Positions 9,808 through 35,744 of a stretch of 40,523 bases of DNA are shown in pieces. The stretch is from an uncultured Bacteroidales bacterium (lineage in GTDB: Bacteria > Bacteroidota > Bacteroidia > Bacteroidales > Bacteroidaceae): positions 1 through 40,523 of the forward strand of contig CADBXO010000022.1 in assembly GCA_902798685.1 (NCBI GenBank), read 5' to 3'. The notes beneath the pieces are model-generated. The model saw nothing but the letters and a program-made list of their open reading frames with translations. It was not told the DNA's origin and ran no database searches. The position numbers and the translations under genes were made by a program. How positions within the stretch are numbered: the first letter of the stretch is position 1; each line of letters begins with the position of its first letter.

Positions 9808-9895
9808 CGGAAAGACGGGGATTCGAACCCCGGATACGCTTTTGGCGTATACACGCTTTCCAGGCGTGCCTCTTCAACCACTCGAGCATCTTTCC
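9808..9895 (-). tRNA. tRNA-Ser(GGA)
   Basis: The minus strand folds as a class II tRNA: acceptor stem GGAAAGA/TCTTTCC with discriminator G, and an anticodon stem with loop CTGGAAA giving anticodon GGA. The long variable arm (ATACGC CAAAA GCGTAT) is typical of serine tRNAs, and the T-arm is CCGGG-GTTCGAA-TCCCCG. CCA is not encoded. Confidence 0.97.
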
Positions 9896-30090: not shown

Positions 30091-30159
30091 CTCAAAAAGG
30101 TTCCAAACGGAAGGTTTAGCTCGACGAAGTCAACCGTCCCCAATGGCACCAAATTCAGC

Positions 30160-30356
30160 ACAGTCCGGACTATAGATTAAGGAGCGTTAGTGGAGAGGCG
30201 TTGGGAGGGGCCCACGGAGGATCCCGTTAAGAACGGCGCATGTTTGACGAACGTTAGGCCCCGAAGGGGACTATAAGGAGGAGTTCGACGTTTAGGGTCC
30301 GGAGGGGTCCCGAGTAGACTCGGAACGTCGTCTCCTTAATCTATAGTCCGGACTGT
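30160..30356. repeat. 197-bp element with perfect 25-bp terminal inverted repeats
   Basis: Ends at 30160-30184 and 30332-30356 are exact inverted copies (25/25); each contains the palindrome AGTCCGGACT. The 147-bp interior has no convincing ORF. It carries three small hairpins: CCGTT-AAG-AACGG (30224-30236), CCCC-GAA-GGGG (30259-30269) and CCGAG-TAGA-CTCGG (30310-30323). It could be a MITE-like insertion or a structured RNA. No clear target-site duplication is seen. Confidence 0.75.
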
Positions 30357-30390
30357 TTGATTTATTTATAACATAATTTGCATAAAAATG

Positions 30391-30421
30391 TTTTGGCTTA
30401 TTTATAAAATAGGTATCTTTG
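30391..30421 (+). promoter_or_regulatory. Promoter of the ilv operon
   Basis: TTTTG at 30391-30395 and TATCTTTG at 30414-30421 are separated by 18 bases and match the Bacteroidota -33/-7 pattern. Predicted transcription start is near 30428, about 16 bases before the leader peptide ATG. Confidence 0.75.
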
Positions 30422-30443
30422 CGGTCACATTTTGGAACGAGTT

Positions 30444-30506
30444 ATGTATAACATGTCAGTCATTACCTTTATTGTGGACGTGGTGGTCGCTTGGCCGGCG
30501 CGTTAA
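30444..30506 (+). CDS. ilv operon leader peptide (attenuator sensor)
   Basis: ATG at 30444 opens a 20-residue peptide ending TAA at 30504-30506, beginning MYNMSVITFIVDVVV. Seven residues are valine or isoleucine, five of them in I-V-D-V-V-V around 30471-30488. The regulated genes make exactly these amino acids. The stop codon lies directly before the antiterminator arm. This is the classic layout of a ribosome-sensing leader peptide: scarcity of Val- or Ile-tRNA would stall the ribosome on these codons. Confidence 0.75.
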   Translation: MYNMSVITFIVDVVVAWPAR

Positions 30507-30566
30507 GGGAGAGGTTATACCTGACATTCTGATACAGGCCCTTCTCCCACAAGGAGAGGGGCTTTT
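30507..30566 (+). promoter_or_regulatory. Transcription attenuator of the ilv operon
   Basis: Three mutually exclusive segments are visible. GGGAGAGG at 30507-30514 can pair with CCTTCTCCC at 30540-30548 (antiterminator). GCCCTTCTCC at 30538-30547 can instead pair with GGAGAGGGGC at 30553-30562, followed by TTTT (terminator). An early segment ATGTCAG (30453-30459), inside the leader peptide gene, can pair with CTGACAT (30521-30527). Ribosome position on the leader peptide should select between them. Confidence 0.75.
30538..30566 (+). terminator. Conditional terminator of the ilv attenuator
   Basis: Ten-bp stem with one G-U pair, loop CACAA, then TTTT. It lies 36 bases before the ilvD start, so premature termination would keep RNA polymerase out of the whole operon. 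Confidence 0.8.
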
Positions 30567-30602
30567 GATTGAATATATATACAAAAACAATAAACAGGAG
30601 AT

Positions 30603-32405
30603 ATGAGAATTCCATTACGCAGTGACCAGTGCACCGTAGGACGCCGCATGGCAGGAGCCAGAGCCCTCTGGGTCGCCAACGGCATGAAACCCGGTCAGCT
30701 GGGCAAACCCATCATAGCAATTGCCAACTCATTCACACAGTTTGTACCCGGACACACCCATCTGCACGAGGCCGGTCAGATTGTCAAGGCTGAGATTGAA
30801 CGCCTGGGCTGCTTTGCCGCCGAGTTCAATACAATTGCCGTGGATGACGGTATTGCCATGGGTCACGACGGAATGCTCTACTCTCTGCCCTCACGTGACA
30901 TAATTGCCGACAGCGTAGAGTACATGGTAAACGCCCACAAGGCCGATGCCCTGGTCTGCATAAGCAACTGCGACAAGATCACCCCGGGTATGCTAATGGC
31001 AGCCATGCGCCTGAACATCCCCACCGTATTCGTAAGCGGAGGCCCCATGGAAGCCGGTGAGATGGGCAGTGCCCGTCTGGACCTGATCGACGCCATGATC
31101 AAATCGGCCGATGAGAGCGTATCGGACGCCGATGTAGAGGCAATCGAACGTGCAGCCTGCCCCGGTTGCGGATGCTGCTCAGGTATGTTCACCGCCAACT
31201 CAATGAACTGCCTTACCGAGGCCCTGGGTATGTCACTGCCCGGTAACGGAACCATCCTGGCTACACACAAGAACCGCGTGCAACTCATGAAGGATGCAGC
31301 CGCCCTCATTGTAAAGAACGCCCTCAAGTACTATGAGGAGGGTGACGAGAGCGTACTGCCCCGCAGCATAGCACAGAAGAAGAACTTTGAGAACGCAATG
31401 AACCTGGATATCGCCATGGGCGGTTCCACCAACACCATACTGCACCTACTGGCTGTTGCATATGAGGCCGGCGTTGACTTCAAGATGGACGACATTGACC
31501 GTCTGTCACGTCACGTACCCTGTCTGTGCAAGGTAGCACCCAACACCCAGAAGTACCACGTACAGGATGTAGGCCGCGCAGGCGGTGTACTCAACATCCT
31601 GGCCGAACTTGCAAAGGGAGGTCTGCTCCACATCGATGCCAGGAGTGTGACAGGAATGACATACGGAGAGCTCATTGAGAAGTACAGCATCCTCAAGGCC
31701 GATATCGACCCCGAGGCTAGGCGCATATACTCAACCGCACCTGCACGTAAGTTCAACATAGAGCTGGGCTCACAGGACTGCACATACAGCGAACTTGACA
31801 CCGACCGCGCCGAAGGTTGCATCCGCGACCTGCAGCACGCCTACACCAAGGACGGAGGTCTGGCAATCCTCAAGGGTAACATAGCAGTTGACGGCTGCGT
31901 AGTAAAGACCGCAGGTGTTGATGAGAGCATCTGGAAGTTCTCAGGTCCCGCCAAGGTATTCGACTCACAGGAGGATGCCGTTGAGGGTATACTGGGAGGC
32001 AAGGTTGTAGCCGGCGACGTAGTAGTCATCACCCATGAGGGTCCCAAGGGAGGTCCCGGCATGCAGGAGATGCTCTACCCCACCTCATACATCAAGTCAC
32101 GTCACCTGGGTAAGGAGTGCGCCCTGATCACCGACGGCCGTTTCAGCGGCGGTACATCAGGTCTGAGCATCGGCCACATATCACCCGAGGCAGCCAACGG
32201 AGGTGCAATCGGTAAGGTACTGGACGGTGACATAATTGACATAGACATACCCGCACGCAGCATCAACGTACGCCTGAGCGATGCCGAGCTGGCTGCACGC
32301 CCCATGCGTCCGCTCACCCGCAAGCGTGTAGTTGCCAAGAGCCTCAAGGCTTACGCCAACATGGTAAGCTCAGCCGATAAGGGAGGTGTCAGAATTATTG
32401 AATGA
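30603..32405 (+). CDS. ilvD: Dihydroxy-acid dehydratase
   Basis: The 600-residue enzyme dehydrates dihydroxy-isovalerate and dihydroxy-methylvalerate to the keto acids of valine and isoleucine, using an oxygen-sensitive iron-sulfur cluster. Cluster-binding motifs are [11 protein letters not shown] (Cys123) and [17 protein letters not shown] (cysteines 186-192). Other family motifs are [50 protein letters not shown] and [17 protein letters not shown]. The sequence follows the E. coli type closely over its whole length. It is first in ilvD-ilvB-ilvN-ilvC and overlaps ilvB by four bases (ATGA). Confidence 0.98.
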
Positions 32406-34108
32406 ACGTTATGACAGAACATATCACTGGAGCTGAAGCATTGCTCCGATCACTGCTTGCCGAGAACGTAGATACGGTATTTGCATATCCCGGCGGCTCA
32501 ATCATCAAGGTGTTCGACGCACTCTACGGTCACCGTACTGACCTGCGTCAGATCCTGGTTCGCCACGAGCAGGGTGCCACCCACGCTGCACAGGGTTACG
32601 CCCGCGTATCGGGCCGTACAGGTGTGGCCATCGTGACCAGCGGACCTGGTGCCACCAACACCATCACCGGTATCAGCGATGCCATGCTTGACAGCACCCC
32701 CATCGTTGTAATAGCCGGACAGGTAGGGACCGATGCCCTTGGCACCGACGCATTCCAGGAGATTGACCTGGTAGGCGTAACCCAGCCTATCACCAAGTGG
32801 AGTTATCAGATACGCCGCGCCGAGGATATAGCCTGGGCAGTGGCTCGTGCATTCTATATCGCAGGCTCAGGCCGTCCGGGTCCCGTAGTGCTTGACTTCA
32901 CCAAGACTGCCCAGATGCAGCAGATTGACTTCAAGCCCGCCAAGATAGACTATGTACGCAGTTACATACCTGCACCCGACCCTATCGAGTCACAGATAAA
33001 TGAGGCCGTAGCCCTGATCAACAGCGCCAAGAAGCCGCTCGTACTGGTAGGTCACGGAGTAGAACTGGGTAATGCCGAGAAGGAGCTGGCCGCTTTCATC
33101 GAGAAGGGAAACCTGCCCGCAGCACGCACCCTTCTGGGACTTGCCGCCCTGCCATCGGACCACCCCCTCAACATGGGTATGCTCGGTATGCACGGTAATC
33201 TGGCTCCCAACGTAAAGACCAATGAGTGCGATGTCCTGATTGCAGTCGGCATGCGTTTTGACGATCGCGTAACAGGCACGCTCAGCACATACGCCAAGCA
33301 GGCCAAGATCATACACCTTGACATTGACAAGTCTGAGTTCGGCAAGAACGTAAAGCCCGATGTAACCGTATTGGGTGACTGCCGCCAGACACTCCAGCTC
33401 ATTACCGAGCGCATGGAGAAGGCCGATCACAAGGAGTGGATCGAGAGCTTCAAGCCGCTTGACAAGGAGGAATTTGACAAAGTCATCAATATAGCCGTAA
33501 ATCCCAAGAATGGCCCGCTCAAGATGGGTGAGGTTGTAACTGAGGTAAGCAATCAGTCACCTGCAGATTCAGTTCTTGTAACCGATGTAGGTCTGAACCA
33601 GATGTTCGCATCACGTTACTTCAAATACCGCTCACCGCGCAGCATCGTTACATCAGGCGGTCTGGGAACCATGGGATTCTGCATGCCCGCAGCAATAGGT
33701 GCCACATTCGGTGCTCCCGAGCGTATGGTACTGGCATTCTTCGGCGACGGCGGTTTCCAGATGAACATTCAGGAACTGGGTACCATAATGGAGAACCAGG
33801 CTCCCGTCAAGATGATCCTGATGAACAACACCTATCTGGGCAACGTACGTCAGTGGCAGCAGATGATGTTTGAGGGCCGATACTCATGCACCCACATGAT
33901 GAACCCCGACTACAGCAAGATTGCCGCAGCATACGGCATCCCCTACCTGCTGGTAACTGACCGCAGTCAGCTGGCCGATGCCGTTAAGCAGATGATCAGC
34001 GCCAAGGGTCCGTTCATTCTCGAGGCAGCAGTGCTGGAGGAGGAGAACGTCATGCCTATGATCAAGCCGGGCAATTCGGTTGACCAGATGATCTTTGAAA
34101 TCAAATAA
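32402..34108 (+). CDS. ilvB: Acetolactate synthase, large catalytic subunit
   Basis: The 568-residue thiamine-diphosphate enzyme condenses pyruvate with pyruvate or 2-oxobutyrate, the first common step of valine and isoleucine synthesis. It shows the N-terminal TPP-binding region [16 protein letters not shown] with the catalytic-glutamate segment [16 protein letters not shown]. The middle domain includes [13 protein letters not shown], and the C-terminal ThDP motif is [19 protein letters not shown]...NN. The ATG overlaps the ilvD stop; a second ATG three codons on is possible. The small subunit gene follows after two bases, as expected for a two-subunit enzyme. Confidence 0.97.
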
Positions 34109-34110
34109 GG

Positions 34111-34668
34111 ATGATTATGGAGAACGAGAAGAAACTATACACACTGATTGTTCATTCAGAGAACATCGCCGGTATCCTGAACCAGGTTACCGCAGTGTTC
34201 ACACGCCGTCAGGTAAACATTGAGAGTCTGAACGTATCGGCCTCATCAATACCGGGCGTGCACCGCTACACAATCACCGCATGGGCCGATGCCGAGACCA
34301 TCGTAAAGATTGTGGACCAGATTGAGAAGAAGGTCGACGTACTGCAGTGCCAGTACTTTACCGATGATGAGATATTCATGCAGGAGGTAGCCCTATACAA
34401 GGTTGTCACAAGCGTGCTTACCGAGAACCCCGAGATGTCCAAGATCATCCGCCGCTACGGCGCCAAGCTGATTGAGGTCAACTCAACCTTCTCTGTAATC
34501 GAGAAGACCGGACGTACCGAGGATATCACGGCTCTGAACCGTGAGCTCTCAGCCCAGGGAGGTATGCTCCAGTTCGTAAGCTCAGGCCGCGTGGCAATTA
34601 CCCGCGCCCGCATCGAGCATGTAAACGAGTATCTGGACAAGATGGAGGCCAGATACGGCAAGAAGTAA
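34111..34668 (+). CDS. ilvN: Acetolactate synthase, small regulatory subunit
   Basis: The 185-residue protein starts with an ACT domain (about 7-85; LYTLIVHSENIAGILNQVTAVFTRRQVNIESLNV), which in this family binds valine and mediates feedback inhibition. A C-terminal ALS-small domain (about 95-175) follows, with IRRYGAKLIEVNSTFSVIEKTG. It activates and regulates the large subunit encoded directly before it. An alternative ATG two codons downstream is equally possible. This longer form is more like IlvH/IlvN of many bacteria than the short E. coli IlvN, so the symbol is approximate. Confidence 0.93.
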   Translation: MIMENEKKLYTLIVHSENIAGILNQVTAVFTRRQVNIESLNVSASSIPGVHRYTITAWADAETIVKIVDQIEKKVDVLQCQYFTDDEIFMQEVALYKVVTSVLTENPEMSKIIRRYGAKLIEVNSTFSVIEKTGRTEDITALNRELSAQGGMLQFVSSGRVAITRARIEHVNEYLDKMEARYGKK

Positions 34669-34703: not shown

Positions 34704-35744
34704 ATGAAAATGAATTTCGGCGGTGTCATTGAAGAGGTAATGACACGTGAGGAGTTCCCGCTGGAGAAAGCCCGCGAGGTACTCAAGAATGAGACAATTG
34801 CAGTTATAGGTTACGGTGTTCAGGGTCCTGGACAGGCTTGCAACCTTCGCGACAACGGTTTCAACGTAATCGTTGGCCAGCGTCAGGGCAAGACCTATGA
34901 CAAGGCCGTTGCTGACGGTTGGGTTCCCGGCAAGACTCTCTTCTCTATCGAGGAGGCTGCTGAGAAAGGTACAATCATCTGCATGCTTCTGTCTGACGCA
35001 GCTCAGATGCAGCAGTGGCCCAACATCAAGCCTTACCTGACCGCAGGCAAGACTCTCTACTTCTCACACGGTTTCGCTATCACCTGGAACGACCGCACAG
35101 GCGTTGTTCCTCCCAAGGATATCGATGTTATCATGGTTGCTCCTAAGGGTTCAGGTACATCACTCCGTACCATGTTCCTTGAGGGTCGCGGTCTGAACAG
35201 CTCATACGCTGTATATCAGGATGCATCAGGCAAGGCTCTTGAGAAGGTTCTTGCATTCGGTATCGGTATCGGTTCAGGTTACCTGTTCGAGACCACATTC
35301 ATCCGCGAGGCTACATCAGACCTCACCGGTGAGCGCGGTTCACTGATGGGTGCTATCCAGGGTCTGCTCCTGGCTCAGTATGAGGTTCTCCGTGAGAACG
35401 GTCACACTCCCTCTGAGGCATTCAACGAGACAGTTGAGGAGCTCACTCAGTCACTCATGCCTCTGTTCGCACAGAAGGGTATGGACTGGATGTACGCCAA
35501 CTGCTCAACCACTGCACAGCGCGGTGCTCTTGACTGGATGGGCCCGTTCCACGATGCAATCAAGCCCGTTGTTCAGAAGCTCTATGCAAGCGTTAAGAGC
35601 GGTAACGAGGCTCAGATTTCAATCGACAGCAACTCAAAGCCCGGCTATCGTGAGGGTCTTGAGAAAGAGCTGGCTGCCCTGCGCGACAGCGAGATGTGGC
35701 AGACCGGTGCTGTTGTACGCAAGCTCCGTCCTGAGAACAACTGA
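34704..35744 (+). CDS. ilvC: Ketol-acid reductoisomerase (NADP+)
   Basis: The 346-residue class I enzyme isomerises and reduces acetolactate and acetohydroxybutyrate, the second step of the pathway. The nucleotide-binding motif is VIGYGVQGPGQACNLRDNG, followed by VGQRQGKTYD, whose arginine contacts the cofactor phosphate. The HGF(A)ITWN, PKGSGTSLR and ERG-SLMGAIQGLLLAQYE motifs mark the metal and substrate site. It lies 35 bases after ilvN, a larger gap than those between the other ilv genes. It uses more T-ending codons (GCT, GTT, GGT), as ppiD and exbB do, which may reflect higher expression. Confidence 0.97.
   Translation: MKMNFGGVIEEVMTREEFPLEKAREVLKNETIAVIGYGVQGPGQACNLRDNGFNVIVGQRQGKTYDKAVADGWVPGKTLFSIEEAAEKGTIICMLLSDAAQMQQWPNIKPYLTAGKTLYFSHGFAITWNDRTGVVPPKDIDVIMVAPKGSGTSLRTMFLEGRGLNSSYAVYQDASGKALEKVLAFGIGIGSGYLFETTFIREATSDLTGERGSLMGAIQGLLLAQYEVLRENGHTPSEAFNETVEELTQSLMPLFAQKGMDWMYANCSTTAQRGALDWMGPFHDAIKPVVQKLYASVKSGNEAQISIDSNSKPGYREGLEKELAALRDSEMWQTGAVVRKLRPENN

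Follow-up and report, generated by a model that had tools for sequence, protein, structure and literature searches.

The question raised by this locus is how transcription of a valine and isoleucine operon is controlled in an uncultured member of the Bacteroidaceae, between the operon's promoter and its first gene. The window analyzed here is the whole 40,523-nucleotide stretch of contig CADBXO010000022.1. The source genome is 2.26 Mb long in 42 contigs, with a completeness of 83.7%; the nearest named IlvD, 94% identical, belongs to a metagenome-assembled genome (MAG) labelled 'Bacteroidaceae bacterium'. Model scores identified the downstream genes as follows:

30603..32405, plus strand: ilvD, dihydroxy-acid dehydratase (TIGR00110, 774.7 bits)
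32402..34108, plus strand: ilvB, acetolactate synthase large subunit (TIGR00118, 668.3 bits)
34111..34668, plus strand: ilvN, acetolactate synthase small subunit (TIGR00119, 83.5 bits)
34704..35744, plus strand: ilvC, ketol-acid reductoisomerase (TIGR00465, 323.1 bits)

Upstream of ilvD, a promoter and a short reading frame were assigned:

30391..30421, plus strand: promoter of Bacteroidota type, with a −33-like TTTG (30392-30395) and a −7-like TATCTTTG (30414-30421), located by eye
30444..30506, plus strand: leader peptide ORF encoding MYNMSVITFIVDVVVAWPAR followed by the stop codon, with Val 11, 13, 14 and 15 as control codons; V/I/L-rich leaders occur in 83 curated positives, the window included

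The promoter was labelled from the likeness of TTTG and TATCTTTG to the Bacteroidota consensus. A sigma-70 promoter scan, which does not cover the Bacteroidota type, found nothing, and a TAnnTTTG-like motif precedes many of the other printed leaders, as judged by eye and without statistics. Seven of the 20 leader residues are valine or isoleucine (V6, I7, I10, V11, V13, V14 and V15), clustering codons for the amino acids of the ilvDBNC operon. Translation probably starts at ATG 30444 rather than at ATG 30453, because leaders L082, L092 and L099 retain the first ATG but not the second. The leader is overlapped by a 72-aa frame (30388-30606). The original prediction, made from the sequence of the window, had named a promoter, a 20-residue ORF with seven Val/Ile residues, an overlapping 72-residue frame and downstream genes for Val and Ile synthesis, and each was seen again, the promoter by eye.

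Four helices are possible in the leader RNA, namely a clamp, a hairpin across the Val codons, an antiterminator and a terminator. They are formed by the following segments:

30453..30459, plus strand: early segment AUGUCAG, the 5' side of the clamp, folding with 30521-30527; native and swapped pairing compared in 47 leaders
30465..30470, plus strand: ACCUUU, beside the clamp, pairing with 30510-30515 (AGAGGU) inside the antiterminator arm when the ribosome is absent (folding)
30477..30504, plus strand: hairpin across the Val codons, GACGUG/CGCGUU and UGGUC/GGCCG (folding)
30507..30514, plus strand: segment 2, the antiterminator 5' arm GGGAGAGG, pairing with 30541-30548 (covariation)
30521..30527, plus strand: CUGACAU, the 3' side of the clamp (folding, swapped-duplex test)
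30536..30548, plus strand: segment 3, comprising the terminator left arm (30536-30547) and the antiterminator 3' arm (30541-30548) (folding, covariation)
30553..30572, plus strand: segment 4, the terminator right arm (30553-30564) followed by a short U tract (folding, covariation)

The stretch 30420-30580 folded better than 200 of 200 shuffles (z −4.2). The terminator has 12 pairs (30536-30547 with 30553-30564), a folding energy of −21.0 kcal/mol and a z of −4.1, equalled or bettered in 1 of 200 shuffles. An intrinsic terminator is present between the leader ORF and ilvD, despite a short T-tract (TTTTGATTG) and a strict terminator scan that did not call the window's hairpin. The antiterminator, in which GGGAGAGG (30507-30514) pairs with CUUCUCCC (30541-30548) at −15.8 kcal/mol (z −2.1), competes for the left arm of the terminator and shows compensatory changes; segment 2 itself resembles the terminator's right arm. 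For the Val-codon hairpin, the mean z in 47 leaders was −1.2, with z below −1 in 26 of them. An antiterminator arm directly after the leader stop and an early segment pairing with 30521-30527 had both been foreseen; the former pairs with 30541-30548, and the latter pairing recurs in other leaders. The predicted terminator hairpin also exists, with 12 pairs at 30536-30564 where 10 had been given at 30538-30566.

The influence of translation on this fold was modelled by a ribosome walk, in which the RNA was folded to the end of segment 3 with the ribosome footprint held unpaired. With a footprint of 15 nt on the 5' side and 12 nt on the 3' side, the probability of the antiterminator in the window, P(2:3), was 0.02 with no ribosome. 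With the A site on Val 13 or Val 14 it rose to about 0.98, on Val 11 it was 0.47 and on Val 15 it was 0.05; a ribosome at the stop codon gave 0.00. Values varied with the 5' footprint: 18-21 nt gave 0.96-0.99 at Val 11, 13, 14 and 15, 15 nt gave only 0.05-0.14 at Val 15 and 0.47-0.97 at Val 11, and 12 nt gave at most 0.22 at Val 14 and Val 15. In 36 of 47 leaders, including the window, P(2:3) exceeded 0.8 with the ribosome on the best-placed V/I/L codon but fell below 0.1 at the stop, and 11 failed; the average over V/I/L codons was 0.75. In 12 of the 47, again with the window, P(2:3) was additionally below 0.2 without a ribosome. Since 2:3 is already favoured without a ribosome in 26 of the 47 leaders, the ribosome-free 'off' state is not general in the model. 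In silico, the choice of helix appears to be decided by ribosome position, in a footprint-dependent manner.

The computed folds suggest a sequence of events for the window. Without a ribosome, the early codons would clamp the stretch after segment 2, segment 2 would be held, and the 3:4 terminator would form. When charged Val-tRNA is scarce, the lead ribosome would be expected to stall on the Val run; according to the folding, a ribosome stalled there would open the clamp and release segment 2 for pairing with segment 3, and the operon would be read. When valine is plentiful, a ribosome at the stop codon is predicted to cover segment 2, and the terminator would form.

The recurrence of this architecture was surveyed in 204 ilvD upstream regions, comprising 80 named loci, regions from genus genomes and family genomes, and the window. 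Since the identical pairs L001/L093 and L002/L132 were kept, the 204 regions represent 202 distinct ones and the 83 curated positives 82; L081, L114 and L115 were omitted as duplicates. The family regions came from the best-scoring matches, 80 of them picked in addition to the loci given by the search, so genus tallies are biased to close relatives; L178 covers only 300 bases because its contig ends there. The detector required three parts: a short V/I/L-rich ORF, a hairpin with a T tail and, close to the ORF end, a segment that pairs with the left arm of that hairpin. It was positive in 85 of 204 ilvD upstream regions, in none of 4,080 dinucleotide shuffles and in 3 of 1,366 other real windows, which confirmed that the attenuator architecture at ilvD exceeds chance. 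Two positives judged false by eye (L027 and L157) were removed to give the curated 83. Several regions were leader-like by eye but detector-negative (L008, L014, L036, L041, L046, L052, L054, L057, L106 and L121) and were left out of the counts, except that L106 entered the by-eye genus classes. Among named loci, with phylum taken from record titles, the detector was positive in 25 of 57 Bacteroidota and in none of the 23 from other phyla. Bacteroides propionicigenes, Phocaeicola faecalis and Odoribacter laneus were among the positives, as were MAGs labelled Alistipes, Saccharicrinis and Paludibacter.

Alignment of related ilvD upstream regions, in which conserved Val/Ile codons and compensatory stem changes had been anticipated, showed three parts that recur with compensatory changes in many Bacteroidales: the Val core, the terminator and the antiterminator arm. 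In 36 aligned leaders, 6 of the 12 terminator pairs carried two-sided changes that kept the pairing, and RNAalifold recovered the terminator as the sole helix of that alignment. In 47 dissimilar leaders, pairing was found in 461 of 526 cells for 2:3, a count that is partly circular because pairing was maximized in placing segment 2, and in 517 of 520 cells for 3:4. Compensatory alternatives occurred in 10 of 12 columns for 2:3 and 9 of 12 for 3:4.

The last V/I/L run ended at a steady distance before segment 2, with a median of 11 nt and an sd of 2.8. The stop codon, in contrast, ranged from 26 nt after to 8 nt before the start of segment 2 (−26 to +8, sd 10). In the Phocaeicola MAG loci L004 and L022, the frame crosses segment 2, and the stop lies 21-22 nt past its start. 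This combination of fixed run spacing and drifting stop suggests that the register is set by the stalled, not the released, ribosome. Codon choice in the leaders was also distinct: GTC/GTG made up 350 of 395 Val codons versus 51% in 40 ilvD genes, and CTA 54 of 241 Leu codons versus 2%. The enrichment of Leu CTA recalls known leaders, in which control codons can be rare codons. The 83 ilvD leaders together contain 394 V, 266 I and 241 L, and VV is present in 79 of them, mostly near segment 2.

RNAalifold gave little structure in the 5' part of a Bacteroides-like set, and the clamp was therefore tested through swapped duplexes. In 47 leaders, pairing of the first 11 codons with the stretch after segment 2 averaged −10.6 kcal/mol for native and −7.6 kcal/mol for permuted combinations, and 0 of 20,000 permutations were as low, under a null whose rows share relatedness. 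Against same-sequence shuffles the mean z was −0.98, with z above 0 in 8 of 47 leaders, and a control stretch past the terminator gave a mean z of −0.04. At least one start-codon base is included in the clamp in 24 of the 47.

A covariance model built from 36 ilvD leaders was used to search 247 genomes of the order. Matches with E ≤ 0.01 occurred in 169 of the 247, although weak part-length ones may be plain terminators; full-length matches with E ≤ 1e−6 occurred in about 61 genomes, counted by eye. At 39 loci (20 as returned by the search and 19 hand-picked from the listing, one site being the window), the downstream gene on the same strand was ilvD in 30, leuA in 8 and ilvE in 1. These correspond to 37 distinct sites, since L252 coincides with L267 and L264 with L268. 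The check was restricted to these three genes, and L266 and L276 themselves supplied the leuA and ilvE references; a small unrelated intervening gene would therefore escape notice. NCBIfam names agreed for leuA in the window's genome and for the ilvE region. The ilvD element is one of a group of leaders that is widespread in Bacteroidales, with codons that vary with the operon (ilvD, leuA, ilvE).

The second model match in the window's genome (L266) ends 28 nt upstream of the leuA start codon and encodes the Ile-rich MRLQGFIIISIIIPDCRCEEA. Taken together, the eight leuA leaders contain 41 Ile, 29 Leu and 3 Val, with VV in none of the eight. The leu operon of the window's genome encodes a 713-aa protein (L212:1486-3624, minus strand) in which LeuD is joined to a domain resembling citramalate synthase (the best model, CimA, scored 633 bits, below its cut-off of 950). 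The citramalate route is an isoleucine pathway, and the dominance of Ile in leuA leaders may fit an operon with a possible isoleucine route. The same genome encodes a His leader, MKRYTVSYHHHHTCRS, ahead of hisG (L207, about 1353-1470), together with an antiterminator and a terminator; no leader was seen in the stretch inspected at the aspartokinase locus L208. Some arrangements are multiple. By eye, L054 has tandem attenuator-like units before ilvD, successive model matches are paired before ilvD at G530:C68:23745-24066 and G421:C25:18272-18545, and the attenuator leader MKLFITIIISIIIYSPP before ilvE (L276, G463:C140:6261-6523) adjoins a second model match.

Within the window's own genus the element is patchy. 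The 37 genus genomes yielded 33 upstream regions, with G002, G006, G010 and G036 omitted because of incomplete ilvD. By eye 11 of the 33 were complete, 10 of which passed the detector; another 6 had a terminator without a leader ORF, 11 only a short promoter-proximal hairpin and 5 neither. On the IlvD gene tree the complete state takes 7 changes, compared with a shuffled mean of 9.6 and an equally low number in 14 of 500 shuffles. Complete leaders were found elsewhere in 11/11 regions of genus g3, 13/13 of g14 and 11/12 of g9, while the same-family genera g13 (0/8), g22 (0/7), g23 (0/7) and g30 (0/5) had none. Absence of conservation in close relatives had been named as an outcome that would count against an attenuator; it applies to part of the genus, given the 10 of 33 regions that pass, but leader and stems are conserved in many wider Bacteroidales. 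From the complete leaders in g3, g14 and g9 and the patchiness of the genus, an ancestral switch that was repeatedly lost seems the simplest reading, although a gene tree can mislead.

The leaderless upstream regions of the same genus (L085, L088, L090, L091, L093-L098, L100, L084, L086, L087, L089, L105 and L108) retain, by eye, either just the hairpin of the terminator or a short one close to where the transcript is predicted to start. A retained hairpin could possibly have been reused as an mRNA-stabilizing 5' hairpin.

The detector, covariation, spacing and ribosome folding support computationally the classic attenuation mechanism first proposed for this locus, and on these models the element very probably controls the ilvDBNC operon by ribosome-mediated transcription attenuation. 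A ligand-binding riboswitch or a protein-binding element, with the Val-rich frame incidental, would account for the strong leader fold (z −4.2). Rfam 15 also leaves a new class formally open: at gathering score the window matched no leader family, T-box or Bacteroid-trp RF01692, its sole match being a tRNA gene (9808-9895, minus strand). Such an element would nevertheless leave unexplained the codon bias, the fixed spacing from run to segment 2 and the operon-dependent residues (Val before ilvD, Ile/Leu before leuA), and the 36-leader RNAalifold consensus contains the terminator helix alone; we regard it as highly improbable. A T-box type tRNA-sensing leader is less credible still. Firmicutes T-boxes do occur in the same gene context, but the leader ORF is conserved and no T-box matched at gathering score or up to E = 10, where a permissive scan of 30370-30620 gave four matches far under cut-offs, none a leader family, T-box or RF01692. 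For the window's leader and for L141, permissive scans gave only matches far under their cut-offs, one of them the Bacteroides sRNA BTnc201 at 17.8 bits against a cut-off of 105.

A terminator that lacks a leader ORF, or a short 5' hairpin, persists in several genus genomes, as would be expected if a leaky terminator and a small functional peptide gene stood side by side, with translation and termination uncoupled. Against this, the likeness of segment 2 to the right arm of the terminator, its covariation with segment 3 and the drift of stop positions make an uncoupled arrangement very unlikely. A variant that lies within the attenuator reading, and whose odds overlap with it, is that the leader senses mainly Ile/Leu codons or the overall translation rate instead of Val. 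The 266 I and 241 L beside 394 V and the enriched CTA point that way, but VV in 79 of 83 ilvD leaders, mostly near segment 2, makes it rather unlikely. Beyond the attenuator at this locus, we tentatively consider a wider scheme that is possible but not the probable outcome. In it, one Bacteroidales RNA family before ilvD, leuA and ilvE would control much of branched-chain amino acid (BCAA) synthesis, with a register that depends solely on how far the Val or Ile/Leu run lies from segment 2, leaving the stop free to drift. The clamp would often pair with the leader start codon and lock out late ribosomes, so that one pioneer ribosome decides, and in the window's genus the switch would have decayed repeatedly to a bare promoter-proximal hairpin.

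The mechanism is classical. The Enterobacterial attenuators, among them E. coli ilvL-ilvGMEDA, ivbL-ilvBN and leuL-leuA, likewise have Val/Ile/Leu codon runs in the leader peptide and mutually exclusive protector, antiterminator and terminator helices, with release at the stop leading to termination. In contrast to these, the Bacteroidales element sits in another phylum behind another promoter and matches no Rfam leader family, its protecting helix is a clamp that joins the first codons to the stretch just past segment 2, and its stop codon may fall well beyond segment 2. If this reading holds, Bacteroidales, a dominant order of gut bacteria, would sense BCAA by coupling transcription to translation, within a phylum that initiates translation largely without Shine-Dalgarno sequences. 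Rfam would gain a new family, unannotated valine-rich frames would be explained, and one genus would offer natural loss mutants to gauge the worth of the switch.

One study describes Ile/Val attenuators as characterized yet absent from Rfam and suggests, from scans of the Rfam His, Leu, Thr and Trp families, that amino-acid attenuator motifs may originate in gamma-proteobacteria (PMC3766115). The present family shares leader-peptide attenuation with them but sits in Bacteroidales, which would qualify that view if confirmed. Bacteroid-trp (RF01692), marked as cis-regulatory in a table (PMC2864571), is also a Bacteroidota cis-regulatory RNA, of the trp operon by its name, and was not matched by the leader. 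Clues of leader-peptide attenuation upstream of amino-acid operons are reported for Flavobacterium psychrophilum; the same mechanism is proposed there in Flavobacteriaceae, and its section on the topic lists pheA and hisG, but not ilvD, with conserved structured 5' elements (PMC9723704). WRC-18-2, a Veillonella ilvD motif proposed as a weak riboswitch candidate, likewise precedes ilvD as a structured RNA and in some cases has a terminator, but it is confined to Veillonella, and the passages on it mention no leader peptide (PMC8632094). The statement that such elements are rarely annotated in Bacteroidota is therefore fair but not absolute, given RF01692 and the F. psychrophilum study. A search of the open-licence literature, with most subscription journals outside its scope, found no description of a BCAA attenuator in Bacteroidales. 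Lopatovskaya 2010 reportedly treats attenuation across bacteria and may already predict the Bacteroidales ilvD element.

A separate feature, a dispersed element, lies immediately upstream of the ilv promoter at 30156-30360. It was matched in 24 of the 37 genus genomes, with up to at least 22 matches per genome; further copies are present in L084, L088, L094, L097 and some of L214-L245, and Rfam at gathering score gave no match to it. The element has a core of ~150 bp, with copies up to 99% identical, and flanking arms of ~20 nt each, which mostly differ between copies and are complementary inside each copy. In 30 near-complete copies, among which L223 and L224 have the same arms, native arms paired at −44.5 kcal/mol and swapped arms at −21.0 kcal/mol. 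The arms seem to be acquired afresh at every site.
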